Assembly: GCF_026151205.1 (NCBI RefSeq)
Contig: NC_087080.1
Span: 10,711,837 to 10,775,836 of the forward strand
Direction of reading: 5' to 3'
Source: Bolinopsis microptera
Taxonomy: Eukaryota; Ctenophora; Tentaculata; Lobata; Bolinopsidae
Length of the DNA: 64,000 nt
The position numbers and the translations under genes are program-made. Position 1 is the first letter of the stretch. Each line of letters begins with the position of its first letter. Positions 19,120-52,200 of the stretch are shown here, piece by piece. The notes under the pieces were generated by a model. The model saw nothing but the letters and a program-made list of their open reading frames with translations, did not search any database and was not told where the DNA came from.

Positions 19120-22100
19120 TTTTACAATGCACATGAAATATAGTAGGTTAATAGACAAACCATAACGTCAAGGACAGTTTCAATGTATGCAGAAGAAGCT
19201 ACCATAGCATTTGTTCAATTGGATATTTGATTCAAGAAAGTAAAAGTCTCAAAATTGTCTATTCTACAGACACACCAAGATAACAGTTCCACTAACCCGG
19301 ATGTACTCCCTCGTATTGGTGTGGCCAGTGTAGCGCTGAGTAACCGCCCTGATCCTCAGATCCACCAGTCTCACGTGACTGTCACGTGACTGAACAAACA
19401 TTCTCCGTTTGTTGGGATGCAGCAGTAACACCGAGATAGGCACGTCCTGAAGATGAGTGGTATCAGCTGGGTTCAGGTCTCATAGAGGCATGAAGAGTGG
19501 AAAATGGAAATACTGTTGAAGATTCTAAAGACTTAAAGAAGTCTGAAACACAAGTTTACGACAATTCAGCCTTAAAATTACTAAATAAACCTTTAGTTCA
19601 GGAGGTTGCACTGTTTCGGACTGTGACCAGGCTGAGCCCCCTCCATTCCACTCAATAATCTGACCTTTACTGTCACCACTGAAATTGTGGATTTAAGCAC
19701 CCTCTCTGCTCTTCATTTCACTATATTCTTAATACTTTAATATACATCTAGATAAAATTCGAGCTTAACTGAACTTAGATCTATCTAGCTGAGGATGACA
19801 ACAGAGCAAAGTGTCTGTTAAGTGTTAACATGTTCTCCTAACCAACCTGTAGAGAGTATCGTTTCCCTTGAACACGATAGAGTTGATGTGCCCAGTGTGT
19901 CCGTGTAGCTGAGCTAACAGTGCACAGTTCTCTCCCGCACAGTTCGTATCCCAGATCCGGAGGGTTCTGTCGTAGCTTCCTGAACGGTGGGGTCACCTTT
20001 AGTGGGGTCACCTTTAGTGGGGTCACCTTTAGTGGGGTCACCTTTAGTGGGGTCACCTTTAGTGGGGTCACCTTTAGTGGGGTCACCTTTAGTGGGGTCA
20101 CCTTTAGTGGGGTCACCTTTAGTGGGGTCACCTTTAGCTTTAGTGGGGTCAGTTATCTGTGCTCAGCAGAGAAACGCCAAGACAGATTATTAAATTGAAT
20201 GAGGTTCAAGAAAATAGAAATTGCAGTGAAAAATAATTCATCTCCAAAGAACTGGAGGTCATTTTATTTTAACATTCTTACTACTCACCAGTTATAACCT
20301 TTCTTTTGTCCACCCACTTAGCACTGTACACAAAACAGGGGTGAGCCATTTGTTTTGCTTGTTGACCATTCTTCCAAACTCGAGCGGTACAATCTGGGGG
20401 TAGTGGGTATCAGTTAGTGACTATAGTAACTATAGTGACTATAGTGACTATAGTGACTCCTAACTTAACAACATTCGCCTCAAAACACCAACATTTTTGA
20501 GCTTCGACTTTGTGATTGAATCAGTACAGATTACAGGAAAAAGACGTCTGTGATGTATTAAACAAGAGAATACAATCCAAATTTTAATTAGAGTATAAAT
20601 GATACACTTCAATGATTTTAGAATTTAGAAAGTTAAAATTTGTGTTACAATGTCTTATCAATCTACCACCAAGTACATAAAGATGGGATCATAGTTTTTC
20701 GCTGGTCTGACTTTAAAGTTCGTGGACTCTCAGTCTCTCGTTACTCTTGGCTATTTGATGTAAAGCAGTAAATTTTGACGCGGACCTTTTTTCTTCTGGA
20801 AGTTCAAATTTGCCGTTTCTCACAAAATCACAAAGAGCCGTGAAAAACTTCCTCACAAACAACCCGTAACTCCTGACAGTGAAGCAGTATAACACCGGGT
20901 TGATGGCACAGTTAAAAAGAATCAGGAACGTGCACATGCTGTAGAAAACGGAGAAATGTTTGGAGTCTTTCTGAGAATTCGTCAAAATGTAATGTCTCAA
21001 AACGTAGTATATCAAGGCATAGGGAATATAGGACATCAAGTGGGTTGCAGAAACCAGTAAGGTTGTGATCAGAGACTGTCTATGCAGATGTCCCGTTATT
21101 TTCTTCACGAATTTGCACAACCACACGGTAGAAACGAACAAAACTAACTCCGAGCAGCTCACAATCACTGTTCTCGTATAACGTATTATCCTTTTCAGCA
21201 CCAAATTACCAGGATTTACCACACAATCATAAGTTGCCTCCGGAACTCAACCCTAGGATCTCCACAGAATTGCACCGCCAGGAAGTTGCTCAAACACCAG
21301 ACACCCGAAACAGTCCACGCGGTGCCGGCTACTTTCCGACCCAGTCCCTTGGAGCGAGCCATCGCCCTGAGAGGGCTCAATATGCACGTTAGCTTGCTGA
21401 CACTCAGTGCAGCGACCAGAAGCAGCTCCGTTATGAGGCAGAAATAAGCCCAGGTTCTGAACAAGCCGCAAATAATAGCGGGGTACATGTTATCTTTCTT
21501 TATTATAAGGGTGATCCAGGAGGCTATATACACCGTGAAACCCAGGTTAGAGAGTGCAATGTGCCGGATTAGAATCGTAGATATATTATCTAGATGGATA
21601 GAGTTGTGTTTAAAGGAGGACCACAACACGAATATGTTTCCTGGTAATGCTGTCAGGATGATACTTAGTGTCCATATGATCATGAGATGCCATCCCACTC
21701 CTTCTGGTGGCATGTGCCTGAACTCTAATCCAGTGGAGTTCCTTGTGCCGCTCATTCTGTCATTTAAGAGATATTATAGATTAACTTTTTGTTAATTAAG
21801 TAAATTAATTTAATATTATTGATGTTTGTTAGGATGATAGATTTATGAGGTGCGGGCAAATAAAGATCATGAAACGTGGATTGAGTCAGTTTTCTTGTAA
21901 GATCTGAAAATGTACAGTAATAAGTCAGGAGCAATCGTAGCTTGCTAGTTCATACTTGTCATTACTGATGGTCATTTCAACTTTGGCTGAAATAAAACCC
22001 CAATCTTGAGGAGCAAATATCACACAAATTTAGATGAAATAAGCAGCTGGTATGATTTCTACAGCTGATTTCTAACACCAAATCATGGGGACGAGGAAAT

Positions 22101-24190
22101 AAGCGGTCACAAGGGACAGAATCAATCTCATCAAGACTTTTTATTCATTGAAAGATTTGAGATATATCTGGAGCTGAGTATGGGAATTGTAAAATCTGGG
22201 ATTGGAATATTATTTACTTGTGAATGGGAATTGGGTCATAGTTCATACTGCAGAATTAAATATTCTCATATCATATTACATATTATTGTGTTCTAATATC
22301 ACTATCAGAACGTTATGTCCTTGTTGAGCAAAATCATTCTGAAGCAATGTCGGTTATCAGTAAAGTACTGCAAGGGACTGATCTCGGTCTTAACTTCATT
22401 TACTGTTAAATTAAATGATCTAGATCAGTACGTGAAAGATTTTAAATAAAACTGAGCAGCGTTGGCGATAACACTCGATTAGGTGGGACAATATTAACGT
22501 TAAATAACTGCAATTTTCTCCAACAAAACCTAAACAGAATCATTCAATGGTCTGAGGAAAACAACACGGAGCTGCATGGAAACAAGTTTGAACTAGCTAA
22601 CAGGTTCACGTTCAACAAAAGAAAAAAATCGACTTTATCAAAATCTGATAAAAAGTAGAAAAATGTAGTAAAAAGACACAGCCTACGATCAAGCTTGTAA
22701 TAGATGATAATCTAACCCTGAGATGAGAAATACGTATCGTACGTACTTATAAAACCGCCTGTACGATACGTACTTTTCAATGTTTTCTACAACAAGAACT
22801 TCATAATTTCTATAATCGTCATAATAATAGGATCGTACGTGCCGCGAGCGCAAGAACCAAGATTATTCTGGAACTAATCGAACACGCGCATTGGATCAAA
22901 ATTATTCTGAAAACGTAGATTATGCACCACACCAACCCGGTGACCGACAACTAAGAACCTCTCATTCAGGCTCCCGCAGGTATCACATCACATGGCCCAA
23001 TCAGTGACGTGTCATTTGTAATGTGATCCCTATTCTAGCCATCCTAACGGCCGGACAACCAAAAACCTGGGTATAGGGTTCACAACCCTCCGTTTGCTGA
23101 AAACCTGCTACCTCTTGAGTGGGAGTACGCAGACGACGCAGACTTCACAGACGAGGATAAAAAGAATTTGGAGTCCATGTTACCAATATGCAAGGAGATA
23201 TTGGAGGAGTGGAATCTTTTTGTCAACGAATCAAAAACAGAGTTCACACCTATCTATCTGGCCGAGAAGAACGAAGTTGATGACAAAGGAGAGCCACTTC
23301 GAGGAAGAGAACCTTGGAGATCATCTATCTCACTTGGTTCCAAATTGTGCAGCAACGAGGACATAAAAAGACGATGTATTTTGGCAAATCTTGCTTTCCA
23401 AACCTACAAGAAAGTTTGGGAACAAGGTAAACGCATACCTCTTAAGACCAGACTTAAGATCTACGAAGCCCAGGTGGTCTCCGTCTTAATGTATAATTGT
23501 AGCTGCTGGGCTGCTTCAAAGCAGCTACTGAGTAAACTGGATATTTGCCACAGAAAGCATCTAAGGCAAATCATCAGAATGACTTACCCTAATATAATCA
23601 AAAACGACACCCTTTACAAGAGATGTGAAGTGGTTCCACTCAGTGAGCGTGTTGCATGTGCACGATAGAGGATGCTCGGACATGTCCCTCGCAGTGATAA
23701 CAACTCACCTGCACAGCTTGCATTACACTTTGCAGTAGAGAGTCAGAGTACTAAGGGTTCACATGACAGTTTAATAAGTAGTTGTGTATATATAAGTGTT
23801 CGAGCTCTCGGCATGTGTTCACATATAAACGGTCGTGAGTCAGGTCACGTGTGGCAGTGCAATTGTTTCATATTCTAGCTCAAACCTAGCTCTCCTTCAA
23901 AGTTTTAACAACAATTTCAAAGTTTGGCACTAGTAGTCTCTTAATAAGTTTCACGTCTTTGTGTTTTCAGTCTCGACTTTCCCTCATCCCCTTCATGACT
24001 AATATGCACGGGGAACTATAGGGGCAAATGAAGAAGCGAGGACTATTGTTATGCAGCTGTTACGTACCGACTCAAAAACGGCTGAATCCCCGCCTAGAAA
24101 GAAAACTCATCTCACAGTTTTCTTAGTAACACTAACTGTGTTTTGGAAGAAAATATGATCCACCATACACCCAACGTACTAAGTGTATGA

Positions 24191-27200: not shown

Positions 27201-30200
27201 ACTTGTAACGAGCCAAGAAAGACTGTAGTTGTGTGTTGCAACACTGTGAAGATATAGCCCAGTTTTCTAGTGTGCTGTTTCGTTTTGTTTTCTGCCGTTT
27301 TGTATGTTGGGTAACGAAATAAGGAGTTTTAATTTTAATAAATAAGGAGTTTTTATTCTTATTTTACTATTTCAATTAGTAGACACTGCATAATTTTCTC
27401 AGGAATAAATACACTGTTCTGCAGTTTGTCGTGAAGTTTAGATTATTTTAAGTAATGTTATTCTCTGCCTGTGTTTTGGTACCACAATTTAACCTCCTGA
27501 CGAACCTAGGACAAATAGGACCATGATTTAGGAAAAACGAACTAAAAAAACGAACTAAGAGTACAAGTACGAAAACTGAGCAAATGTTGGACAAAAAGTA
27601 GAGAATTTAGCAGGTAATTACATCTTTACATCAAAGACAAAAATTATACACAACTACAACATTGTGTTCTTAGTCCTTATATTCTACTATATCTGTAACA
27701 GAAATTTAAATCAACAACAAGGCTGTCAGTAACTGAGTAACTGGTCAAGGTCACGTCTCCATTAAAAAGGATTGTAAATTTACAGCAGTGAGCTAATTCC
27801 TAAGTTATTAAGAAACTGTTTACACCATTAAAATATTCAAAACCCCTAAAAGAAATCAAGTCATCCTAAAATGGTGATCAGTACAGATCAAGACAGCTAG
27901 AGTTAAAATTTGTTTCTCCAAGCAACTCTATCATCGGCTAATATCTTAAGCTTATTAAGATCATTCAAAGAGTTAAGTTTTAAACCTCTACGGGTCAAAT
28001 CATTCACAATAATCTTGAACAAATTCTTACGATGCGCACCGACGCGCCCTTTACAGTTTGTTGTGACAGCAAACTTTAACGCTAATGCAGCGGGGGAGTC
28101 ATCAGCACTACGCAAGATATGACCTAGGAGCTTCCACCTTGCTTTAGGGACACGATCTGATAGCTTAACTGAGTTACATCTTAGGTATAAGTTTGCATTG
28201 GATATTGTTCCATGAGGCCAATAAATGTTCAGTAATGATCTAAGGTGTTTTCTATGGCAAATGTCTAGTTTTTCTAGTGACTTTGCAGTAGGACACCAAC
28301 TACTGCAATTGTACATGATGATTGATACAATTTGGGCTTCGTATACTGCTATCTTTCTGGTAACGGAGATATTCTGCTGAGACCAGATCTTGGTGAACTT
28401 ATAGAAGGCATTGTTCCCAGCAATGCATCGAGCAGCTATATCACTTTCACTACACAACAATGACCCAAGAATCTTACACTTCCGCCAATCTTCATTTCCA
28501 CGTAACATGGTATCATCACGACCAGGGATTGTTTCTCCAACAGGAGCGAGGAAAACATGGGTAAATTCTGTTTTCTCTGTGTTAATGAACAGGTTAAACT
28601 CCTTGAAGACTTCCTTAGCTATTGGTAGGATAGCTTCTAAGGATTCTTTTTCCACGTTCATGAAGTTACAATCATCTGAATACGCTGACTCCAGTGGCAT
28701 ACCTTCTTTTGAAATAGGGGGATTGGGTATGTGTGGGGGAGACTCTGCTAGTCGATGGCGTAGTTCTATAAGAGCTCCTGCTAGGACAAGAGTGAAAAGC
28801 TTGCCGGAGAGACTGTCACCTTGAAAGGACCCAAGAAGACTCTCGAATACAGCAGATAGTTCTCCTTCCACTCTGACCTTGAGCATGGTGTTGGTTAAGA
28901 GGAGTCTTACTAGCCTGAGGTCGTCGTCTGTGCATCCAGCTGTGCTAATTCCTAAGTAATTTTTTTTATTCAATTATTAAAGTTCTTCTGATGAGAATAT
29001 ATCAGGAACTCATTGATTTTGTTGGAAGAATTTTATATCTGTAGAATTTTTGTTTAGACTTTATCGAATGACCGACCAAGTTATTTACGGTGAAAATTTT
29101 TATAACGTGACCTGTTCTTTTTGTAACGTGACCTGTTCTTTTTGTCCTTCTTGTTCTCAGAAATATAGATTTAAAATCATTGCATTATCTCTCAGCCAGT
29201 TTTAAAGCTCGACAATGAATTCAACAGACACCTCAGTTACCACGATGATGCCAGACCCCGAAAATTACTTTAGATACTTCTCCCCTGTCAATCTTACCTT
29301 AGCAGTCTACATTGTGATCCAGAACTCAATGATAATATACCATTATTACAAAGACTGGAAGAGGCTGTCTGTAAAGCAGACCTATTAGTAGCCGGTTCTA
29401 AACCGGCTACTAGCCGGCACTTGAAAAGCGGTCACTAGCCGGCTACTAACCGGCTACTAACCGGCTAGTAACCACCAAGTGGCTACGAACCGGCTACTAA
29501 CCGGTCACTAGCCGGCTCTAAAGCAGACCTATTAGTAGCCGGTTAGTAGCCGGCTAGTGACCACTTTTCAAGTGCCGGTTAGTAGCCGGTTGGTAATGTG
29601 AAGTTGAGGAGCTGTTATTACAAAAGTGGCTACTAGCCGGCTAGTAGCCGGTGTTCATATGGTACTGTGCAGGGACGTTGCATAGACGTTGCATAGACGT
29701 TGCATAGACGTTGCATAGACTGACCGTGCAGGGAGTGTGCATAGAGTGTTCATTGTGCAGGGACGTTGCATAGACGTTGCATAGACGGTTCTTTTGTTGT
29801 TGCATGGACGTTGCATAGACGTTGCATAGACTGTCCGGAGCTAAACGACCAAGTTGCCTGTCTTTTCATTCTGATCGCTGCTGTGGACATAGGAAGTGCT
29901 TGTTGTGCAATGGTGAGGGGATCTGTTGTACTGCTATGCTTGAACCGTTCTTCCTTGAATATGCCCAATTGGATTTTATCAGCATTGAGTTCGATCGGAA
30001 TTCTTTGCTACACCACATCAGCGTTCTTTGGATTGGTACTGACAGTTGTTAAGACCATAAACATAATTAACCCGTTCTATAGTATTCGCGTACGGAGTCT
30101 TATGATTGCTATCATAATACTCCCATTTTTAGGCCTTATTTTGTCCGTGGTTGATACATGGTCTTTGGCGACTCATTTAATACACCCGGGGAACGTGCAA

Positions 30201-33200
30201 TGTACTATTGATGGGTCACCATTTTACTCCGCGGACGTATTTATTGGATATGGCATACTATTTACATATATACGGACAAATTTATATCTTTTAATAATAG
30301 GGGTTACCCTAGTGTTCTTAGAGTACTGTATACCGTGTTTAATTGTACTTGTATGCATGGTTCTTCAAATAGTTTATGTCAAGAAAACTCTCCAGAGTGT
30401 GGATCCACGACAAAGAAGTTGGAATCAAGTAACCATCACAATACTTATAATATCCTTGCTTTATTTAATGAGCTTCGCGGTTTACTCCTATATGTTATTA
30501 AGTTCATTCTTTTACAGCGGGAGCCCTAACACAACATTTTTCAAAATATTTTATCAAATATATATGATTACAAAATACACCCTTCCCTTGGTAAATTCAG
30601 CACTATTCCCGACCATCCTAATCGTGCGTAAACCAGATCTGTGGGCAACGTACAAAGGGTACATGTGGACAGTTATATCCCTACCTGTCACCCTCTTCCA
30701 CAAAGTTTGTCAGTGTAGAAGAGGCTACACAGAAATCTAACTGAAAACTATCAAAACGAAAGGTTGAGTAGTAGTACTGTTATTGTAAGGTTGAAATAGA
30801 AACCTTACTATCATTGGAAATGTGAACGTGTGTGAATGTGATTAATAGACTGATGGAATTTGTTTTACAAGACTTGTTTGAAAATACGAGAAAAACAGTA
30901 TAAAAAGAGACAATTATCATTGTTAAATTATATTAGTAGTTTAGGAGAATAATTGTGTGATTGATTTTAAATATGATTTTGTAAAAAGTAAATTTAGAGA
31001 TAAAAATGGCTTCTATTCGAGATCATTAAGATTGAGAGATTCACGTGTGATTAATGTGATTAGACACAACTGAAGCTAATTTCAACTCTCGATTGACATA
31101 ATGACATTTTGAAATACATTGATTCTTGAAATAGAAATTTCCATATTTGTACATAAACGCAAAAAAAGAGAGAAAAATATATGAAAATCATTATCATTAT
31201 TGGTAATTTGAGAAAAAAAAGTGTGATCGATTCAAGATTTTTATTAGAATAACTAATATGAGCTGCATTGTAAAAAAGTTCATGTCGATTTTAACTGTTG
31301 ATCGATGATTTTTTTAAATGTTATGATTTTTGAAAAGCATTCCAGATTGATACAGTTAAATTACACATAAATCTAACTGAAAACTATCAAAATAAACGTT
31401 AAAAATAGAAACCTTATTATCATTGGAAATGCGAACGTGTGTGTATTGTGTATGTGATTAATAGACTGATGGAATTTGTTTCACAAGAATTGTTTGATAA
31501 TACGAGAAAAATATATAAAAAAAGGAACAGTTATCATTATTATAATTAGTAGTTTAGAAAAATTCTTGTGTGATTGATTCAAATGACATCGTAAAAAGTA
31601 AAAAATAAGATAAGAAATGAGTTCGAGGTTGAGATTTACGTGTGATTATTGTGATTAGGAATACCTAAAGTTCATTTCTAATTTAAACTCTAGATTGATA
31701 TAATAATAATACAATGATTATTAAAATACATCCCAGAATTGATCATTAGCACAAAAAAAAATAATTATCATTATATCATTGGTAATTTGAAAAAATATGT
31801 GTGATTGATTCAAGACTTGTATAATGATAATGTATTTTGGCACACCTAATTATATATAATATACTTTAGTATATATACTAAAGTTCGCTTCAATTTTAAT
31901 TTTAACTCTTGTTTACAGATCTGAATTGCATTCTCGATTTTTACACAGGAAGAAAAGAGAAAAATCTCACATAATATCTATCATTATTATGATCGATTGA
32001 ATACTTGTGTTACAATTAAAATCTTCACATACTTTTCCGTTTTGAAATTTTTTTTACTGAATTACAATTGTTTTCCTGAATAGTTTCCATTGGATACTAT
32101 TGTAAATGAAACATGCGGCGAATTAAAGTTTAATTCATTATGTCAATCTGCATGAATCATTCTTCATAAGATTACAATTTAAAAGAGGTTGAAATCTAGA
32201 AAACTCATCTAACGGTTTAAGGTCTCAGTAGGGCTAAGTATCATCATAATCAACACATTAATACGATAAGAAATATCCCCCGGAGAAAAATTAATAAATG
32301 TGAATCCAATAATATATGGTCTAGGAATCGTAAAACTTCAGACGATCACTGATCGTGGCAGTAGGCATATCATAGTAAAAGTTAGATGAACAATGAAAGT
32401 TAATAGTAAAATTAAGAAAAAAAAGGTTTTAAAAAAATAGTGAAAGTAAGTCATTTATGACTTACTTTCACTATTTTTTTAAAACCTTTTTTTTGTATTG
32501 AAAATATGTCATAATATATTGATGTCGTGATGGTAAGTCATGATGATAACATGACAATGAAAATTTCTTAAGTAAGATACTATCCTGACAACATCTGACC
32601 TGCTCATTCGGTGAAGTAGACTCCTGAACAACCTGCTCAATATACTGGGAGAGAGCCGGGTTCTGGGCCGCTACCTGGTCCACGTACAAGCTGGACAACA
32701 CAGACTTGTCCGTGATGTTACCCACTGTCACGTACATGGTACTGGGGTACTTTGTTCGGCTGAGTCCTAGGAAGATGTCTGATATCTGGAGGGAGAGAGG
32801 TTTGGTTGCCAGATTAAATTTATCTGGTGGCTGTTCATCTCAATATCATTAAAAAAGGTTTTTTACGCGAATAAATCAGAGCATCTTCAATAATCGAATA
32901 ATATAGCTTTTAAGAATTTGAACTCATGATTTGCAGTCTCGACATTGAAATTAGTAAAAGTGGTTTTAACTCAACCCACACTTTGTTCAATGATCGGATA
33001 TCTGAACAGTTGTAGTCTCAGTTTTCTGTTAACATTGTGTCCACCCTGTCCTGATTTTAGTTTCAAGAAGGCCCAAGCTATGAGATTCCATCCTGTCTTG
33101 TGCTTTTTAAGAGCTCGTGCTGGGACTATATCAACTATCTGAAGTTAAGATTTTAATGAAAACATCTTCATCTTCAGGCATGAATTTCAGCAGAGGTGAG

Positions 33201-36200
33201 ACCGTAGAAAAAGAAATGGGTATCATAAAATTAATAGATCTAATTTATCATATTATATTAGATTAATAAATAATTATATATTACCTCAAGGAATTATCTA
33301 TTACCTCGAGAAACAACATAGCGTTATCATTACCAATAATACTATTGTAATGCTCGGGAATAAGAAGCTGCTCCTCCCAACAGGGGGACATAGTCTTATT
33401 AATCCTCAAATCAAACGGCTCTGTCAACAGAGGCTGTATAGTGCTGTACCGTGCATCACCTGCAATTTAAAATGTTTTAAAGCAGCTTATTATACGACAT
33501 ATACAGGATACCATAGTCGTGGGAATTTAAAATAAGTGCCAAATATTCTGAAAAGGGCGAAGAGTTTACATGGAATACCAACCACAGGCTTGGGATGTGT
33601 ATTGTGTTATACCGAAAATTATGGTCTCCATAAAATCCAGAGAGACCAGCACTCAAATAATAACTCACCTTAAGTTGAGGGTAAAGGTTTACCTGTCTTG
33701 CTGTCCAGCACTCAAATAATAACTCACCTAAAGTTGAGGGTAAAGGTTTACCCGTCTTGCTGTCTAGCACTCAAATAATAACTCACCTAAAGTTAAGGGT
33801 AAAGGTTTACCCGTCTTGCTGTCCAGCACTCAAATAATAACTCACCTAAAGTTAAGGGTAAAGGTTTACCCGTCTTGCTGTCCAGCACTCAAATAATAAC
33901 TCACCTAAAGTTGAGGGTAAAGGTTTACCCGTCTTGCTGTCCAGCACTCAAATAATAACTCACCTAAAGTTGAGGGTAAAGGTTTACCCGTCTTGCTGTC
34001 CAGCACTCAAATAATAACTCACCTAAAGTTGAGGGTAAAGGTTTACCTGTCTTGCTGTCCAGCACTCAAATAATAACTCACCTAAAGTTGAGGGTAAAGG
34101 TTTACCCGTCTTGCTGTCCAGCACTCAAATAATAACTCACCTAAAGTTGAGGGTAAAGGTTTACCCGTCTTGCTGTCCAGCACTCAAATAATAACTCACC
34201 TAAAGTTGAGGGTAAAGGTTTACCCGTCTTGCTGTCCAGCACTCACATAATAACTCACCTAAAGTTGAGGGTAAAGGTTTACCCGTCTTGCTGTTCAGCA
34301 CTCACATAATAACTCACCTAAAGTTGAGGGTAAAGGTTTACCCGTCTTGCTGTTCAGCACTCAAATAATAACTCACCTAAAGTTGAGGGTAAAGGTTTAC
34401 CCGTCTTGCTGTTCAGCACTCACATAATAACTCACCTAAAGTTGAGGGTAAAGGTTTACCCGTCTTGCTGTTCAGCACTCAAATAATAACTCACCTAAAG
34501 TTGAGGGTAAAGGTTTACCCGTCTTGCTGTCCAGCACTCAAATAATAACTCACCTAAAGTTGAGGGTAAAGGTTTACCCGTCTTGCTGTCCAGCACTCAA
34601 ATAATAACTCACCTAAAGTTGAGGGTAAAGGTTTACCTGTCTTGCTGTCCAGCACTCAAATAATAACTCACCTAAAGTTGAGGGTAAAGGTTTACCCGTC
34701 TTGCTGTCCAGCACTCAAATAATAACTCACCTAAAGTTGAGGGTAAAGGTTTACCCTGTCTTGCTGTCCAGCACTCAAATAATAACTCACCTAAAGTTGA
34801 GGGTAAAGGTTTACCCGTCTTGCTGTCCAGCACTCACATAATAACTCACCTAAAGTTGAGGGTAAAGGTTTACCCGTCTTGCTGTTCAGCACTCACATAA
34901 TAACTCACCTAAAGTTGAGGGTAAAGGTTTACCCGTCTTGCTGTTCAGCACTCAAATAATAACTCACCTAAAGTTGAGGGTAAAGGTTTACCCGTCTTGC
35001 TGTTCAGCACTCACATAATAACTCACCTAAAGTTGAGGGTAAAGGTTTACCCGTCTTGCTGTTCAGCACTCAAATAATAACTCACCTAAAGTTGAGGGCA
35101 AAGGTTTACCCGTCTTGCTGTTCAGCACTCACATAATAACTCACCTAAAGTTGAGGGTAAAGGTTTACCCGTCTTGCTATCCAGCACTCAAATAATAGCT
35201 CACCTAAAGTTGAGGGTAAAGGTTTACCCGTCTTGCTGTTCAGCACTCAAATAATAACTCACCCAAAGTTGAGGGTAAAGGTTTACCCGTCTTGCTATCC
35301 AGCACTCAAATAATAACTCACCTTAAGTTGAGGGTAAAGGTTTACCCGTCTTGCTGTCCAGCACTCAAACAATAACTCACCTAAAGTTGAGGGTAAAGGT
35401 TTACCCGTCTTGCTGTTCAGCACTCACATAATAACTCACCTAAAGTTGAGGGTAAAGGTTTACCCGTCTTGCTATCCAGCACTCAAATAATAGCTCACCT
35501 AAAGTTGAGGGTAAAGGTTTACCCGTCTTGCTGTTCAGCACTCAAATAATAACTCACCCAAAGTTGAGGGTAAAGGTTTACCCGTCTTGCTATCCAGCAC
35601 TCAAATAATAACTCACCTTAAGTTGAGGGTAAAGGTTTACCCGTCTTGCTGTCCAGCACTCAAACAATAACTCACCTAAAGTTGAGGGTAAAGGTTTACC
35701 CGTCTTGCTGTTCAGCACTCACATAATAACTCACCTAAAGTTGAGGGTAAAGGTTTACCCGTCTTGCTATCCAGCACTCAAACAATAACTCACCTAAAGT
35801 TGAGGGTAAAGGTTTACCCGTCTTGCTGTTCAGCACTCACATAATAACTCACCTAAAGTTGAGGGTAAAGGTTTACCCGTCTTGCTATCCAGCACTCAAA
35901 CAATAACTCACCTAAAGTTGAGGGTAAAGGTTTACCCGTCTTGCTGTCCAGCACTCAAATAATAACTCACCTAAAGTTGAGGGTAAAGGTTTACCCGTCT
36001 TGCTGTTCAGCACTCACATAATAACTCACCTAAAGTTGAGGGTAAAGGTTTACCCGTCTTGCTATCCAGCACTCAAACAATAACTCACCTAAAGTTGAGG
36101 GTAAAGGTTTACCCGTCTTGCTGTTCAGCACTCACATAATAACTCACCTAAAGTTGAGGGTAAAGGTTTACCCGTCTTGCTGTCCAGCACTCAAATAATA

Positions 36201-39200
36201 ACTCACCTAAAGTTGAGGGTAAAGGTTTACCCGTCTTGCTGTCCAGCACTCACATAATAACTCACCTAAAGTTGAGGGTAAAGGTTTACTCGTCTTGCTA
36301 TCCAGCACTCAAACAATAACTCACCTAAAGTTGAGGGTAAAGGTTTACCCGTCTTGCTGTTCAGCACTCAAACAATAACTCACCTAAAGTTGAGGGTAAA
36401 GGTTTACCCGTCTTGCTGTCCAGCACTCAAATAATAACTCACCTAAAGTTGAGGGTAAAGGTTTACCCGTCTTGCTGTCCAGCACTCAAATAATAACTCA
36501 CCTAAAGTTGAGGGTAAAGGTTTACCTGTCTTGCTGTCCAGCACTCACATAATAACTCACCTAAAGTTGAGGGTAAAGGTTTACCCGTCTTGCTGTCCAG
36601 CACTCAAACAATAACTCACCTAAAGTTGAGGGTAAAGGTTTACCCGTCTTGCTGTCCAGCACTCAAACAATAACTCACCTAAAGTTGAGGGTAAAGGTTT
36701 ACCCGTCTTGCTGTCCAGCACTCAAATAATAACTCACCTAAAGTTGAGGGTAAAGGTTTACCCGTCTTGCTGTCCAGCACTCAAATAATAACTCACCTAA
36801 AGTTGAGGGTAAAGGTTTACCCGTCTTGCTGTCCAGCACTCAAATAATAACTCACCTAAAGTTGAGGGTAAAGGTTTACCTGTCTTGCTGTCCAGCACTC
36901 ACATAATAACTTACCTAAAGTTGAGGGTAAAGGTTTACCCGTCTTGCTGTCCAGCACTCAAACAATAACTCACCTAAAGTTGAGGGTAAAGGTTTACCCG
37001 TCTTGCTGTCCAGCACTCAAACAATAACTCACCTAAAGTTGAGGGTAAAGGTTTACCCGTCTTGCTGTCCAGCACGTGAATTCTAACCAGTGGATGGAGG
37101 AGGTAGAGGGTAGGGTAGAGGTGGTCGGCGTAGTGAACCTTTACACTCATAGCTGAGTCTAACTGTCTGATAGCTGGTGAGGAGAGGACTGTTGCTATTG
37201 GTTCCTTTTCTGAGGGAGTTAAAACTAGGTTAACAGTTCAAGTATGTTGTATTATCATGTTGATAGAAATGGATCAGTCAATAATAAATCATCTCCATTA
37301 TAATTCGGAGTTTTCTCCGTGTATGTTTGTATGACCGCCCACGTGCAGATTAGGTTCAAATAAGGGAGCTGCATAGTAACGACGTTGGAACTATATTATG
37401 AGCGGTTTTTTAGTTATTATTATTGTTAAGTAAAGTGACGTGTTTTACATTAAATCGGCTGTATCTTCGGTTGGTATTTATTCATAAACTATTACCTGCA
37501 TTCTTCGGAGACGGCCCTCCTTTGCTCTTTTTATTGGGCATTAATTTCCTGAGGGTACTAGTCTTCTGCTTTTCCGGAGTCTGTGGTTCCTCAGCTTCTG
37601 CTGATAACACTGCTTTGTTTGAGATTATGACATCTTCATCTTTTTCAGATAGGACTGCCCCTGTTAGATATCCAACATAAACTTTTGATATTAAGATTGT
37701 ACAATTATATTGAGCTGAATGTTGCATCTCAGGAATTTACGACCATACTGTTATTGGAATTATGATAATACAAATATTTACCTCCATCAACTTCAGTTTC
37801 TAAACCCTGTTTAGCCTTCTTCTTTCTCCGTTTCTTCTTCTTCTCTCTAGGAGATGGCACCATGTTGGCCTCAGCAGCAGATACATCAGGGGTAGGACTG
37901 CCAGGTGTAGGACTGAGCGGTGCAAGACTCTCTTCTGGAGTTTCCTGACTTTCTGGATCAGGCAGGTCACGCTGGAATCATTTGAGTGAGTCAAAATTGA
38001 GGTCTAAAAAGGACAAGAAAGATTAAATGTTTCACTGAAAGATCAGATTTAAACTTAAACATTATGTAAACAAAACATTACGAGAAAAGATGTGAAACCT
38101 TTCGTCGTCGATTTCTCCTTTTAGGAATATCCTCAGTATGAGATTCAACTGTCTCAACCTTTTTTGACGGCTCAGGTGTTATCACTGTCACTCTAGAATC
38201 ATCCTTCGTCAACTTCCCCTCATCTTCCATTTTTTCAAGAAGTTTCCGTCGGGCCTGCCTCCTTGCTTCCCGAGCATTTTCGAACTTAGAACTATCAGTT
38301 GGTGAGACAGGTGATGTTTCGAGAGTTTGACCAGATGAAACGGTTTTAATTTTTGTTCCCATTGGGGAATCTGGTGTTTTCTCTGGAGTAGCAACTTCTT
38401 GTTCTGGGGGCATCACCAATTAAAATATAGCTAGGCTTTTCGAAACGATAACAAACTGTTTCAACATGTAACAAAGAAATAACATAAAATAAAATTCTAA
38501 ATTGAAAGAGTCACAATTATTGCACAAAGTGATCTGATAAAAAATAATTACCATCTTTGAGTGAAGGTTCCTCTTCGTCCAGTTCTTCCTCAGCTTCATC
38601 TTCACTATCAATCTGTTTAGCTCCAACATCCTCATCTTCTTCTACCTCCACTTTTTCTTCATCCTCCTCCTCTCCCTTGTCCCCATCTGCTTCCTCTTCT
38701 TCAGCCTCCACGAGAGCGTCTTTATCAGCGGTTTTCTGTTAACAAAATAATAAGATGATTTCCATAACGTCGATATTTTGGAAAGGGTACTATACGATGT
38801 ACATCAAATAAACAGGATTTACAAAAAAAAACCAAACTGATAACAGTTATTAAAATACCTTTTTCCCTTTCATTTTGGACTTTCCCTTAGATTTCAACTT
38901 ATTTCCAAGCATTGAAAACTTGTTTTTGAACTTCTTCTTTGCCTTTTCAGATTTAGTTTTGCTTTCTCCCGCGTCTTCCTCTGCCTCATTTGTCTCAGCA
39001 ATGTCGTCTTCTGCAAGGTTGATATTTTTACAGATGTGCATAATGCAAAAATTCAAGATACAAATAATCATCTGTCTAATCATCTCCTAAAACAAGAGTT
39101 TAAAATACACTAACCTAATGGAACAGGTTCATCAATACTTTTACCATCTCTCTCGCTGATATCTTCCTCATTTATAACCTGAAATCAGAAATCACAGTTT

Positions 39201-44110: not shown

Positions 44111-44505
44111 ACTTTATAGTGCTAATTAAACCTGAGTTTGAGTATTTTGAAGACTTCCACTAAAATATGTTATGAATAATGAATATAGATATTTTCTTGC
44201 ATGAAAAGTGGTTAACAATGCTCTAGTTGGAAGAATGTGTGAACAAGTCAGTAAAACAAATTTATCAGTAAACTGATCATTCAATTGATGCACTTCGACC
44301 ATGTGCACACATGAGTAGAGAAGTGGATCAAATGTTTTGTTAAGGTTAGGGTTTTAAAAGTTTCGTTACCAACCCTTGCTCAGGTTCATAATCAGTCATC
44401 AATTTTAAAAGGATGTCACGAAATTGTGTATATTTTGAATATATGATTATCAATTCCCTTCCTTTATAAATCTGATATTTACTTCAGTTATTATGAACTT
44501 CAGGT

Positions 44506-45855
44506 ATGGCTGAACAAAAATATGAACTATGGACCATCCCATCAAAGAACAAGCTTCCCAAGCACTATCCATGGTATTCTGAGAGACTGAGGCAGAAGTA
44601 TTTGTCAACCAAACCATCTGGTGCATTGCTGTCAAGTAATTGGGTCTTTGTAAAGGATGGTGGTGATGATTACAGGACTGGTATCCCTCGAGAGACAATG
44701 TCTGCTCAACCCTATTTGACAAAGAAAGATGGCTCACGCCATCCAGCAATGGCACCAAGAAATTTACCTCCTCTCAATCAAAACAGGGAGCCCTCTGCAA
44801 GAATCAGCAAAAGCTTAGACAAGCAGACAATTGCATTTTCCAAGAAAGTTCCTCGAAAAGAAGCACAAATGCAGTACATTGATGTTATTGAGGAGGGTCT
44901 GACTGGTCATCCCCTTGCAGTGTTTCCACATTATGAAGATGCTGTTGCACCTGAACTTTTTGAGGAAATCGTGGAAGCTCTAGATCCTGAGGTTCGTCAA
45001 GATAGTTCCAGTGATTTGTCTGAGTCAACTGAAAATGATTCACCAAGAGATGATGCTGTTTCCGAAGCAGAGGAATCAAAAGTGTCACAGGAATCACCAG
45101 TGCCAAACCAATTAGACTCCGAAAGCAAAACGAGTGTTGTCAATGAAAATTCTCTGCCTATTAGCTCTTTTAGATGGTACCCATCAGAGGAACCTTTTGA
45201 TGATAACAATTCTTCTCCAGGAGTCCAAGAGCGAGGCTCAGGGCACACCAAGATTCAAAGTGTCACCAAAGACTTTTGTGACTGGGTAAGAGAACTTGGA
45301 GGGGATCCAAATGATGCTCATATCAATAATATTGAAGAGAGTACTATCTTCAGTTTGTTTGCAAGTGGATATGAAACAAAACCAGCCCTCTCTGTCCCTA
45401 TACATGTTGTTCAACTCTCTGATGTTCCTTTGGAGCTCCGCAATGGAGCAATGGTATCACCTGATTTACCAAGTCTCCTCCAATATGGAATTAAGAATTT
45501 GACAATCAGACGAGGCGACACCCCTAGCAGTCACAAGGGAATTGTTTCCCGGAATCACTGGATAAGACATCAATACGGTGCCTGGTATTTACCAGTTGAC
45601 TTGTGGAGACACAAAAATACTCCAACTGGTTTAAGTGATCCTCAGGAGGACACCATGAAAACTGTCTCTGAAGCAAAACTGAAAAGCAGAGAGCTAGACT
45701 CTACCCTGGCAACGATGCATGGTGCAATGTCTTTCAGAGAGTATGTTGATAGAAAAAACAGACGGCGACCAGATTTTCTTCACTGTGTTGATCCTCTAGA
45801 GAAAGAGGAGATAAACATTAACAGTGCTAAATCAGCGCGTGGCGGATCATCATAG
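44506..45855 (+). CDS. FAM47-family-like protein
   Basis: Single coding exon of 449 aa; ATG 44506 lies just after a likely acceptor (AACTTCAG|GT), so a 5' UTR exon is expected. The N terminus contains SSNWVFVKDGGDDYRTGIP, like the FAM47 N-terminal signature. Later blocks are MQYIDVIEEGLTGHPLAVFP, an acidic Ser-rich linker (about 165-225), FCDWVRELGGDP, and FASGYETKPALSVPIHVVQL leading to DVPLELR. The C-terminal part contains QYGAWYLPVDLWR. Assignment rests on these remembered family patterns and is moderate. FAM47 proteins are poorly understood; FAM47E has been linked to arginine-methyltransferase stability. The gene is 440 bp upstream of DLEC1 on the same strand. Confidence 0.65.
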   Translation: MAEQKYELWTIPSKNKLPKHYPWYSERLRQKYLSTKPSGALLSSNWVFVKDGGDDYRTGIPRETMSAQPYLTKKDGSRHPAMAPRNLPPLNQNREPSARISKSLDKQTIAFSKKVPRKEAQMQYIDVIEEGLTGHPLAVFPHYEDAVAPELFEEIVEALDPEVRQDSSSDLSESTENDSPRDDAVSEAEESKVSQESPVPNQLDSESKTSVVNENSLPISSFRWYPSEEPFDDNNSSPGVQERGSGHTKIQSVTKDFCDWVRELGGDPNDAHINNIEESTIFSLFASGYETKPALSVPIHVVQLSDVPLELRNGAMVSPDLPSLLQYGIKNLTIRRGDTPSSHKGIVSRNHWIRHQYGAWYLPVDLWRHKNTPTGLSDPQEDTMKTVSEAKLKSRELDSTLATMHGAMSFREYVDRKNRRRPDFLHCVDPLEKEEININSAKSARGGSS

Positions 45856-46293
45856 TAAAAGTTTGCTTTAAATTTGATTCCAATTAAAATGTGCTGGAGC
45901 TGTACAAGCTGTGATTTTAAGAATGAAGATTGAGATAGATACAATTAAAGATAAAGTTTGATGAATGATGATTTTGCATCAAACTCTGCTTTTGGTATTT
46001 TGCTGTGCTGTTGATGAACTGTAAAAACTCCGACAGTTATGCCGCTGTGCTGCTGCTGCTGCATGCATATCATACTTATACTTTTGTGTTTATATGATAA
46101 TTTGAGATTATAGAAGTACGACATTATTGAGATTTTTTAGAGTTGATGTGTTTAACTGTATCAACAAGTAGCGATATCAAATTGTATGAAGATCAAATAA
46201 TTTAGCATAAATTGCAATCATATAATTTCATACTTCGTCTGTATAGTAGATTATATCATATCATATACATCATTCTTTTTACATAGTCACGTG

Positions 46294-49200
46294 ATGGATC
46301 ATGCACTCGTCCATCAGCGACCAGATGATTGTTCTAGAGAACCCGTCATGCGGCCTGCCCGCCCATCATCACCAAGAAACCAAGTTAGATCCTTACGAAT
46401 ATTTTGATTATTTAATGTTATAGGATTTAACCATAAGTGCTGCATTCCTGGATGTTTATAGCGTTTCTATCTGTCAATATCTCAAACAGCTCAGTCGATA
46501 AAATAACCTATTTCAGGACGTGTCATATGTGTTATCAAGTGTATTCGGGGATCTGTACTCCCAAGATGTGCTTCAAGACGACACTATCATTAATTTAGAG
46601 ACAAGTAGGACCCACGACCCAGACTTTCATGACTACTATGTTCAACTTCTTAACGAGGTATTACCTTTAACATATAAACCATATCAAACCATATCAAACC
46701 ATATTCTAAGTTATCGTTATATTAAATTATCTTATCAGTGGTGATCGATTGTCGATTTTTCGAACCATGTTTCTATCTTGGGACAAATCAGGCAATCTTT
46801 CTACTGGAGAATTACAAAGATTTTATCCATTCACTAATAGTGAATCACTCCACATCAAATAGTTTCAACATTATTCTAAATTTAGATAAGAACTGAGAGA
46901 ACGGAGAGACTTGCAGCGCTGAAGACAGTAGAGGAGCACATGGTTAGCGCTTTTAACTTGGCGTCAGAGCAAAACATGGTGCTTCAGAGTGAAGAGTCTC
47001 AGAATAATTTGGGGATCCCCGAACGTGAGTCTGAGTAATCGGGGATAATATGGATGGGTCCCAATCTCCATCCCAATCGCCGTCGACCATCAATATTCTT
47101 TCTGTTAATGGGGTTAATGTATTCTTCTTTTCAATAACCACGGTGCAGTTATTGGCCACCACCATTGCTACATGATCAGATTTGTTAAAATTATCCATAA
47201 TTAACAATCTTAAAAGTTGGTGATTAGTAAAAACAACCTCCAAGTCTCCCCAGGTCACGTGGGTATCTCCAGTTATCTTGACGAGGAAATGTTAGCAAAG
47301 TACAACCTTCTGACTCCGGGATCCTACCTCCGACCCTCCCCACCCTCTCTTAACCCTCCCTCTGTTCCTGAACTTCCCAACTTCATGAAAAATACCGAGG
47401 TCAGTGTGTCACACAGGGTAAAGAGTTTAAAGTGGTTTTTAATGTTACAATATCTAAGTTTCCTGCCTGAATTTACTAACACTGATTTGATATTGTGATT
47501 GTCACTGCGGCACTACACCCATGACATAGTAATATGGTTCGCGAGACATGATGTATTGATTATTGAGTATTGAGCCAGGCCATGTACATATGATATCGGT
47601 CGCATAGATAATAAGATAATGTTCGATTAGCCGGAGCTATCGTTAGCCATTACCGAAACTTGAAGTTATGTATAAGAGCTCTAGTAGACTATACATTTTC
47701 AGTTGAATATGTTTTATAAAGAGCCTTCTTATCCTTGTTTGATCTCCTGATAGTAACGCTTAGAATCCCATTAATTTTACACTTGCATTTCCAATGCAGA
47801 TCCAATATAACCCGTACCCAGGTAATGGAGGAACACGAGAGAGCACGTATGATACCCATAAACAGAGACACGGCTCTTTTAGCTCCAGCTAAAATTAAAC
47901 GTTCAACTTTGTCTGCAGGCTAGTAAAGTTCCATCAAATTAGTGTTTTGGTATGTTATTTGTAAATTGTGTAATGAAGTGTTGACTGTGAAATGTTCTAA
48001 AATTCTATTCTGCTCTTGTTTGCAAACAAGTGTAATTCTAACAGTTTCGAGAACTTGTTCTGGAAGAATGACTCTTCTGACTTTTTATTGTTTTTGTTCA
48101 ATTTTTGGAATACCTACTGTCATGTTGGGAATGCTTTCTGTTTTGGTGTACTCTTTGTTCCGGAATGCCAAATATTTTGGAATTCTAACGTCTTATAAAC
48201 AGGTTCTGCAGGTTATATTAAAGTACAGGCTCCAACAAGGAATGCCTGGAGAGATAGTATGCATCCTGATGTTCGAATCGAGGAACAAAAGGTAAACAAT
48301 AATTTTAAATATTTGCAAAAAATGAGCTCCTGTTCTGCTGATTCGTAATATTACTACATAGTATGTATTGTCTTGTCACTAGTGTGAGACCAGTTACGGT
48401 AACTAATTACTTCCAGGGACTTGAGAAACTGCAAGCAAAGAGTCATTTCTTGAAGACGAAAAGATTCGGAAAAGATGAGACGGAAGAACAAATCTTCTGC
48501 ACCGTACCATCTAAGATACATTTCGAAAACTACAAGATTGGCGAGGTAATATTATCAGCTTATCAGTTATGAGTAATTACACTTTTAGTACTTCCATTTT
48601 GAGAAGCCTGGGACTGATTTGTCTTTTACGGCTGTTATTGGGCAAAAATATGAAATTTAGTTTAAATGAAATATTTTTTCGCAGAATTATGAACAGAAAC
48701 TGAAGATAAAGAATGTCAGTAATTCTAGTAGACAACTAAAAGTGTTGCCACCCAGAACGAAGTATTTTACTATTAGCAAAAGTAAGTTATATTAAGCAAA
48801 AGTAAGTTAAGTTGAACTTTGCTCTTAAAATTTTAAACTGCATTCGATCGGAAATCATTTCATGTATGAGGTGACACAGGTATCGACTAAAAACTACACT
48901 TTTCTATTTCTAAACCTACACTATTATATTTCTATGACTCACTAGTCACTACTCAGTCCAGTAAACTACCAGTAAACTTCAGGTGCTGACCCTTCACAAG
49001 GTGCTATAGCTCCGGGACTCTCAGTAGAGTACACGGTCACATTCCTGCCCGGGAGTCTGGGACTCCACCTAGACGAGTTACAGATCATACCACAGGGTGG
49101 TGCTCTGACTAATGTACCGCTAGTTGGAGAGCGGCCCCCACCCAAACTGTCACGTGAGTATCATGTGGTTATCTGTTATCTTCCGCTTAGTTCTGTTGTT

Positions 49201-52200
49201 TATTATCATAATATACTAGCTGTATTATACTGTCAGTTTAGACTGTCAGTTTGTTTACTTCATTTTTTGTGACATTGGTTGTTGGGGACGAAATGAGTGG
49301 AGACTCTCGTTTCGTCCCCAATAATCAATTACGATATACCCACTCACGAGAGCGAAAAAATATACTTTTTTTGTGATAATCAAAACCTCACAGTACCTGA
49401 CATACTGGATTGTGGTTATTGTCTTGTTAACGGCACTTTAAAGACACAGTTTAGATGTAAAAACTCCGGAGGACACGGAATCTTCCAACTCTACCCTCAC
49501 GGTGCGAAATATTTGTTATTGTCACGTGATTTGTGTTAGTCCGACTTCCGTTCTATCTAACTTCACTGCAATAGTCTATGTATGTACTAAGGAATATGCT
49601 GCCTTGGCAACAGCCAATTAGTAAAAAACAATTATATAATTTGTCTCAACACAGTGTATGTAAGTAGTTTATGATATGAGTGAATACACAGCTAATGTTC
49701 AAATACTTAAATTCATCTCTCTCAGGCACTATTTCGGATCCGTTCCTGTTCAATGACCTACTTCCACCCAAGTTCACTTTTGAAAGTAACGGTTTTACAG
49801 TGACACCCACTTCCTTTGCTCTGGATACTGGAGATGAAGTTGTTATTGATGTAGAGTTTCGGCCGGGTGAGGTGTGTAGTAAGATGATTTCAGAAATTGT
49901 GGGTGAAAAATATCAGATACATTAATATTAGAAAGAAAAATGAATTCATGAAAATAATAAATTTGAATATGAAAGAGTCAATTATGAGAAATTTGTTTAT
50001 TTAAAGAGGAAAATATAAGATAGTAAAAAACCTTGGATTTAGGTTGCACGCAGTACAACAAAGTTCACTCTGACAGTGGACAATTGTACACAACATGACT
50101 ACTCGCTTACTGCCGAGTCTCAATCTTGTAGAGTTCAAACCATTGCTGTCAGCGGAGGTTAGATATTGTTTCTTTATTTAGTTACTGACAAGAAACTGGA
50201 CTGTTCAAGTAAATTGTTTGAGTTTTGGACCCAGGTCTGAGAAACAAGGTGATACAAAATTGACATTAACAGGTGAAAGTACAGTGGATTATGACATTAG
50301 AAATGAGGAATCTGTCGAGCCTGTCACCATCAACTTTGAGGATCAAAATCCTGGCACCACAGAGGAGAAAATATTTATTCTAAGAAATTGCGTGTAAGTA
50401 ATAAACATGGATGGAACCATTTTCTGTTTATTCATGTTCAAGTTAACTCTTTAATGAATTTCATTGGACTATTTAGCTTGATAAGTCGTATCATTCCTAT
50501 CTAAATTATTAGTATTTTTTCAGGAACGTTCCTCTTCATTTCAACTGGGAGGTCTGTAAAATATTGACGGAGGAAGAGAAAGGTGAATCTGTCCTGCTGA
50601 GTGCTGATCCTCAAGCTCCTTTCCAAATATCTCCTGCCATTGGAATACTTGATCCAGCCGCTGAAGCTACCTTCTCCATCACATGCAATCCTCAAAATGT
50701 TCGTGCACCACTTAACACTAATTATTATAAATGTGTCAACACATATAGTTAGGATTGATATATCAAGCATTTTTTGATTAACTGTTCGAATATATACATT
50801 GTTCGGACAACTCTCACTTTTTTTAGGCAGGAAAATACGAAAACATGGCACGCCTCTGGGTTGACGACATACCAGCAATGTTGCCATCTGGCATCGTTCT
50901 AGAACGATTTGACGCCTTGCACATCACCCTGACTCACCTGACTCAGCCACACCAGATAAAACTAGATCCTCCAGCTCTGGTAATTCCTGGTGAAAATGTT
51001 GTGGGTAACATGGTGTCCAAAACTGTCAAGATTGTTAATGAGAGTTTGAGTGATACGAATGTGAGATGGTCATGGCCGGAAGGAGATCTCAAAGTGTGTG
51101 TTCACCCTGAATCTCTTACTGTCGGTATGTTGATTTATTAGCCAATTCAGTTGATTATAAGAACTATTTGCTTGTTACCGTTCCCTTAGTCCTAATTAAG
51201 CGTATAATGTAACTGATGATTACTATTCTTTCAGGAGCGGGATCAAGTCGAACCGTACAGATTGATGTTGAGAGCCTATCAGCGGGTGATAAGGAGATAC
51301 ATCTTACTTGTTCATTGGAAAATGTTGACAAGCCTCTGAAACTCTTCCTCAAGGTATTATCAAATCTTGTTTACGACCTTTCCATACCACATGTTTTCTA
51401 TTGCTAGTTTTTGTATATTTTAGGTATCAAAGTACCCCTATTTTCGCGCAATATTGGACGCGCGCGGTCTTATCTCCATGGTAACAAGCGCGCACCAAAC
51501 TTTGTAACTAAATTTAAATTTCTCACAATTTTTAATATAACCGCTACAGCCTACAACTTACAAGCCGAAATAAATACGGCAGTTACCAGCCATGTAAACT
51601 AATAAGCAAAGATAACTGAAGCCACGGCCCACGAAGTTATAAAACTCCTTTTCATCCCAGGCCAAATTCCGTGGACCACGGGTGACGATTTCCGGAGATA
51701 GAGAGGATCCGGCTATAGACTTCGGCTTCATTCACTTCAGAGAGAACTGTTCAGTACAGCGACAGTTTGAGATAATCAATCATGACGGAGTTCATGCGAA
51801 ATGGAGTTTGGCTGAAGTTGATCATTGCGTCGACAAAGATTATGTAAGACTTTTAACTGATTCTGATCTATTGTCATAGTTTAAGAATTTTCAGGTTTTA
51901 TATTTAATGAATGGAATTGAAATGATTCCTACTATTCATAGTTATGTTCAAGTTTGTTGTTCCGATTGAATATCTGTGTATTTTTCAGGGTCAGTCCGAG
52001 TTCCAGTTTTCAGAGACCGGGGGTGAGATTGGACCCTACGAAGTTAGAGCTCTTCATGTTATCTTCCGACCTCATCTACCAAGATCCCTTAAGTCTTTCA
52101 TTGAATGTACCGTAGAAAACGGGACCGGAAAGTGAGTTTTAGTTCGGTATTCTATTGGCTTCCATCGTCTCCTGAAGACGGATATTTTTGATAAATTGAG

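Follow-up and report, generated by a model that had tools for sequence, protein, structure and literature searches.

Mirages are said to have been first reported by Canestro and colleagues in 2002, and human introns arising from tandem arrays were reportedly described by Zhuo et al. in 2007. In the sections of two reports that treat them, lancelet mirages are described as tandem repeats across exon-intron boundaries, 5' or 3', which occur in Adh3, the globins BflGb6 and BflGb9, troponin C, and PGBD5, carry AG/GT in many of their units, undergo concerted turnover, and are unstable in length (PMC3087553, PMC3902484). Reverse transcription-PCR (RT-PCR), as recounted in one of these sections, indicates that splicing is undisturbed by the lancelet repeats (PMC3087553). 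Intron gain by tandem duplication of an AGGT-containing segment, in which splicing could remove whole units, is set out in part of another report (PMC4974935). The array considered here lies in the ctenophore Bolinopsis microptera, in a 64,000-nucleotide stretch of contig NC_087080.1 (10,711,837 to 10,775,836; hereafter the window, within which positions are given unless a contig such as C1 is named), where the donor junction of one exon of an AHI1-like gene is repeated 58 times. Judged from its sequence, the array is probably a mirage, that is, an exon-intron-junction minisatellite that would be spliced from its exon-proximal donor and would evolve nearly neutrally.

Tandem Repeats Finder (TRF), applied to the window, reports a period of 59, 58.1 copies, and 96% matches at 33646..37075, and a unit-by-unit walk along the minus strand yields 58 units, 57 of them of 59 bp and one (unit 40) of 60 bp, followed by a 7-bp tail, GTGCTGG. 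An earlier note on this DNA, which is corrected here in that the AHI1 gene lies on the minus strand, had proposed that the AHI1 exon-intron junction is amplified about 58 times, and the unit count bears this out. Each unit consists of 43 nt of exon end and 16 nt of intron start and so spans the junction; the exon-derived part had been put at ~42 nt of "exon 9," a number that is arbitrary. Unit 1 is the genuine exon end with the genuine donor, and the remaining array is intronic. The exon (37209..37033) ends in CCTCAACTTTAG, the intron then opens with GTGAGTTATT, and the exon joins the next one (33459..33305) in frame as HPLVRIHVLDSKTGKPLPSTL/GDARYSTIQPLLTEPFDLRINKTMSPCWEEQLLIPE (the slash marks a splice junction here and below), in keeping with the proposal that unit 1 marks the true end of the exon. 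Of the 3573-nt intron, the array takes up 3387 nt and a unique tail the other 186 nt, and this tail ends in the acceptor TTTTAAATTGCAG/. As had been claimed, the downstream donors are intact, with GT in 58/58 units; AG/GT is found in 56/58, GTRAGT in 56/58, and the longer motif CTT[TA]AG/GT[AG]AG likewise in 56/58, while 54 of the 58 donors match CAGGTRAGT at 8/9 positions. Most units close with CTTTAG/, so that the array holds acceptor-like AGs as well as donors. The in-frame join to 33459..33305 is obtained only from the first donor, and the internal donors, when joined to the next exon, all (57/57) run into one and the same early stop, a TAG that lies in frame where unit 2 closes; the expectation that downstream donors shift the frame into a stop therefore held, with TAG and not TAA as the stop.

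The units show 96.7% mean pairwise identity and fall into 18 unit types, strings of which recur in blocks of at least five (FJKLH twice and an NINND-type block twice). These recurring blocks argue that the array grew by unequal exchange, and the block duplications substantiate the recent spread that had been suggested for it, although the turnover to which they point is seen in one assembly. The array may have started as a junction-spanning tandem duplication, perhaps mediated by two 7-bp copies of GTGCTGG, of which one lies at the exon side and the other where the array stops on the intron side (a copy that may equally be a partial unit), and its copy number would then have grown by unequal exchange. 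Such an array would persist because the exon-proximal donor, which is transcribed first and closes the 177-nt exon, would still give the right mRNA, and use of a later donor would lead to an early stop and probably to decay.

In the intact donors of variant copies the earlier note had also seen a hint of selection, a reading that the distribution of substitutions does not bear out. Substitutions occur in 13 of the 59 unit columns, three of them among the eight columns of the donor motif AGGTGAGT and ten among the other 51 (P(≤3) = 0.94). The GT columns are unsubstituted, which has a chance probability of 60%, and variable columns are alike in the exon-derived (9/43) and intron-derived (4/16) parts. 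A count of cells leans the other way, with 5/464 substituted in the motif vs 64/2958 elsewhere, and this contrast is discounted because cells count inherited duplications repeatedly. The variation is neutral-looking, and selection on the donors, rejected as a candidate because substituted columns are not depleted in the donor motif, is not supported. This bears on the idea that the internal donors act as poison donors, where some transcripts would use one, run into a stop, and decay, so that copy number would tune AHI1 output. The shared stop codon reached from all 57 internal donors and the near-consensus match of 54/58 donors would suit such a regulator; the donors are, however, not conserved, and mirages in lancelets are reported, in the section concerned, as not disturbing splicing (PMC3087553), which makes this regulator improbable.

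The presence of both splice signals in most units raises a further possibility, namely that the array could be removed stepwise by a self-erasing ratchet in which splicing mistakes would be corrected. From donor to donor, most units read GTGAGT...CCTTTACCCTCAACTTTAG, a 59-nt GT-AG cassette, and because the unit runs from GT to AG, any splice within the array would remove whole units and restore the same exon/GTGAGT junction. CTTTAG/GTGAGT is juxtaposed with the next donor 59 nt on (AG/GT in 56/58), and a TTTAC branch-like site stands upstream of CTTTAG. The polypyrimidine tract is weak, though, a branch site so near the AG would be marginal, and an intron of 59 nt comes close to the lower size limit; the intron measures 3.6 kb, the column test finds no conservation of the motif within the array, and other mirages (L009, L016, L018, and L023) have purine-rich sequence before the AG. 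Ratchet points are described, in the part of the report that concerns them, as a juxtaposed acceptor and donor, a short (~50 nt) exon, and a downstream donor (PMC8605326), and fly recursive-splicing sites, in a comparable excerpt, lie in very long introns (PMC6110457). The AHI1 units resemble Drosophila ratchet points in that AG and donor are juxtaposed and the next donor follows ~50-60 nt on, and differ from them in the short intron, the weak tract, and the motif that is not conserved. On balance, a ratchet is unlikely. The broader proposition that the spliceosome licenses junction minisatellites would allow them, unlike other minisatellites, to grow without bound, and would entail a large population of independent mirages, and, in AHI1, a 58-step ratchet releasing 59n-nt pieces; in view of the weak tract and the purine-rich ends of other mirages, it is rated as quite unlikely.

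Similar arrays occur at other genes, a point that goes beyond the earlier note, as do the acceptor-like AGs and the lancelet precedent. In the genome of 264,652,675 bases on 232 contigs, three copies of a word separated by gaps of 35-65 were searched for on both strands, with matches overlapping within arrays, and this gave 1456 matches for AGGTGAGT and 1732 for a second donor word, AGGTAAGT. The control words, which lack AGGTA, gave far fewer (TGAGTGGA 196, TGAATGGA 13, ATGGATAG 13, AGGAAAGT 162, and TGAAAGGA 158), and the reversed word GATAGGTA, which contains AGGTA and was set apart from the controls, gave 453. The excess of donor-word arrays is not explained by word frequency, as the single-word counts of AGGTAAGT (10,758) and TGAATGGA (7,965) show. 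Very roughly, as estimated from the listed places, there are ~100 arrays per donor word and 1-20 per control word. The acceptor-like word TTTTACAG gave 835 matches vs 112 for its reversed word, an excess which implies that junction arrays are not solely donor-side. With its 58 copies, the AHI1 array is an extreme member of a class that is common in this genome. An array of such length is difficult to assemble, and the repeat might have been collapsed or inflated; the chromosome-size contigs (C9, 17.4 Mb), the ordered differences among the units with their 18 types, and the similar arrays at several loci make such an assembly artefact very unlikely.

Individual loci were judged from both ends and on both strands, since an upstream-only view of the motif strand misses L010, L011, L012, L014, and L024, and the exon calls were mostly made by eye. 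On C1, the AGGTGAGT arrays were listed in full as far as 21.73 Mb, and eight of these nine arrays stand at a called splice junction. Five lie in sense orientation on the donor side of an open exon: L009 (sushi-like gene; Pfam sushi below the cut-off), L013 (ubiquitin-hydrolase gene; Pfam UCH, 3.8e-14), L015 (whose gene has a LIM exon; Pfam, 1.3e-8), L012, and L016. In three, the adjacent exon is encoded on the opposite strand and the array lies on its acceptor side, L011 in a copine-like gene (Pfam 1e-4, below the cut-off) and L010 and L014 with no Pfam match, and the ninth, L017, continues from a CUB-coding frame (Pfam, 2.1e-14) with no resolved junction. Among the AGGTAAGT arrays, two stand at exon ends, in a sushi-like gene (L018) and a dynein-like gene (L019; Pfam 3.5e-4, below the cut-off), and no junction was seen at the array end(s) of L020, L021, and L022, where L021 and L022 belong to one dispersed 32-bp array family with a donor-like word and similar flanks (C1:37500-39200 and 762000-763600). 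Seven of nine further listed loci were examined, L025 and L026 being left unjudged because their sequence had no array end; the arrays of L023 and L024 begin where an exon ends, and no junction was seen at the array end(s) of L027, L028, and L029. At L009 and L018 (401 and 428 kb on C1), two related sushi-like exons 27 kb apart have exon-end arrays whose units differ (34 and 54 bp), which looks as though one junction had been amplified on two occasions. In L019 (C1:883900-885600), a dynein-like exon at 783-1314 has its 3' part repeated in tandem and in frame, in addition to a 57-bp exon-end array.

The arrays on the acceptor side run contrary to what a function in U1 binding would predict. The earlier note had offered a U1 sink, telescripting, or a circular-RNA role for the AHI1 array, and these remain unsupported: 58 near-consensus 5' splice sites in 3.4 kb could in principle sequester U1 or protect against premature polyadenylation, but with no selection on the donors and with comparable arrays at several unrelated genes, such a role is hardly plausible.

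Clustering at junctions was also assessed independently of any word in the 8-kb locus of L009 (C1:396500-404500), which was picked for its own exon-end array, this array being excluded from the nine minisatellites tested. Their distances to the nearest intron-side junction are 19, 18, 801, 10, 1, 0, 65, 21, and 62 nt. With exons called by hand and distance limits of 10, 25, and 65 nt set after the arrays had been seen, 6/9 lie within 25 nt of a junction (0.88 expected at random, p = 1.5e-4) and 8/9 within 65 nt (1.7 at random, p = 5e-5). In this sushi-like gene, minisatellites stand at many intron ends, on both donor and acceptor sides. Under the same 25-nt limit, AHI1 has two such cases among its five other arrays: those of 15 bp x 10 and 9 bp x 4.9 each stand that close to an acceptor (random expectation 0.21, p = 0.015).

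Several of these results weigh against the view of the AHI1 array as a nearly neutral junction minisatellite. Neutrality alone fails to explain why minisatellites gather at junctions; only 2/5 AGGTAAGT arrays on C1 up to 3.11 Mb are at exon ends; and, among the loci other than AHI1, Pfam matches exceed the cut-off only at the UCH, LIM, and CUB loci, with sushi, dynein, copine, and SH3 below it. Arrays of the control word AGGAAAGT are found at junctions too, in four of the ten loci examined out of 12 listed, so that the association extends beyond donor words. L030, L031 (judged from a much-reduced view of the sequence), and, probably, L032 sit at donors, whereas L033 sits at an acceptor; L035 and L036 were read as in-frame coding repeats, and nothing clear was seen at L034, L037, L038, and L039. 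The control arrays at junctions imply that junction association is general to minisatellites here and that the donor words follow from it.

The assignment of the gene started from a human AHI1 sequence, which in tblastn matches 12 collinear pieces downstream on the minus strand, between 33439 and 16779. The matched pieces allow exons with splice sites at their bounds to be called, and when joined these exons match Pfam WD40 (5e-23) and SH3 (3.6e-15). The array-bearing exon has no tblastn match to human AHI1, and joined to the next exon it has no Pfam match. It is called AHI1-like on the basis of its frame, its splice sites, and the likeness, judged by eye, of its HPLVRIHVLD segment to human AHI1. 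The introns of the gene contain further open frames, characterized by eye: 29745-30740 (+) and 20713-21773 (-) are seven-helix-receptor-like, one of them on the opposite strand, and 27903-28973 (-) and 23048-23668 (+) are mutually similar and resemble reverse-transcriptase fragments of a retroelement. A long inverted repeat that looks perfect by eye, AAAGGTTTTAAAAAAATAGTGAAAGTAAGTCATAAATGACTTACTTTCACTATTTTTTTAAAACCTTT, lies in an AHI1 intron at 32400-32530, and the adjoining gene at 44497-54949 (+) has frames that resemble, by eye only, DLEC1/Hydin-type ciliary proteins. The features of the AHI1 gene are collected in Table 1.

Table 1. Position, strand, and evidence for the array and associated features of the AHI1-like gene in the window.
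Feature	Position	Strand	Evidence
AHI1-like exon, 177 nt, with unit 1 at its 3' end	37033..37209	-	Open frame bounded by acceptor CTCAG/ and donor GTGAGT, in-frame join
Array, 58 units and 7-bp GTGCTGG tail	33646..37075	-	TRF, unit walk
Unit 1, 43-nt exon end and donor TAG/GTGAGT	37017..37075	-	Unit walk, in-frame join
Intron, 3573 nt	33460..37032	-	Splice sites, in-frame join
Unique intron tail with acceptor TTTTAAATTGCAG/	33460..33645	-	Splice site
Next AHI1-like exon, DARYSTIQPLLTEPFDLRINKTMSPCWEEQLL...	33305..33459	-	In-frame join, tblastn, exon calling
Minisatellite, 15 bp x 10, in the AHI1 gene, 7 nt before the acceptor of WD40 exon 19979..19847	19987..20137	-	TRF, tblastn, exon calls
Minisatellite, 9 bp x 4.9, in the AHI1 gene, 21 nt upstream of the acceptor of WD40 exon 20393..20289	20415..20458	-	TRF, tblastn, exon calls

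With regard to the host, the Bolinopsis microptera assembly has 13 scaffolds of chromosome scale, the haploid genome being estimated at ~254 Mbp (PMC10232365), and ctenophore nuclear receptors are described, in the section dealing with them, as having no zf-C4 zinc finger (PMC3038971). A search of the present genome for the zf-C4 nuclear-receptor finger, run without a positive control of its own, found no match, a homeodomain search gave 111 matches, of which 110 are on contigs C1 to C13, and COX1 had no match in the genome. The lack of a zf-C4 match beside so many homeodomains is indirect evidence that fits a ctenophore. Given a ctenophore host, mirages would reach well beyond lancelets, and their presence at several ctenophore genes would make exon-intron junctions recurrent seeds of minisatellites in distant animals. 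No paper on ctenophore minisatellites was found among the matches listed from one open-access library, and a confinement of mirages to lancelets in print is not established. Such arrays would also offer a natural competition of dozens of near-identical 5' splice sites for one acceptor and raw material for models of intron gain via tandem duplication. An origin of the AHI1 intron itself by such a gain, in which the unit would be the new intron, is not supported: like the introns that come from AGGT duplication, the array has units that each bear AG/GT, so that splicing could remove whole units, but the AHI1 intron continues past the array into 186 nt of unique sequence with an acceptor of its own. 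The closest counterparts are the lancelet mirages, with which the AHI1 array shares a unit that spans the junction and AG/GT in most units, and from which it differs in its 58 copies, against three and six in two BflGb6 haplotypes in the portion of the lancelet work that reports them, and in its ctenophore host, which lies outside the cephalochordate range of those mirages. On the structural features shared with them, the AHI1 array would be classed with the mirages, in a new and distant lineage.

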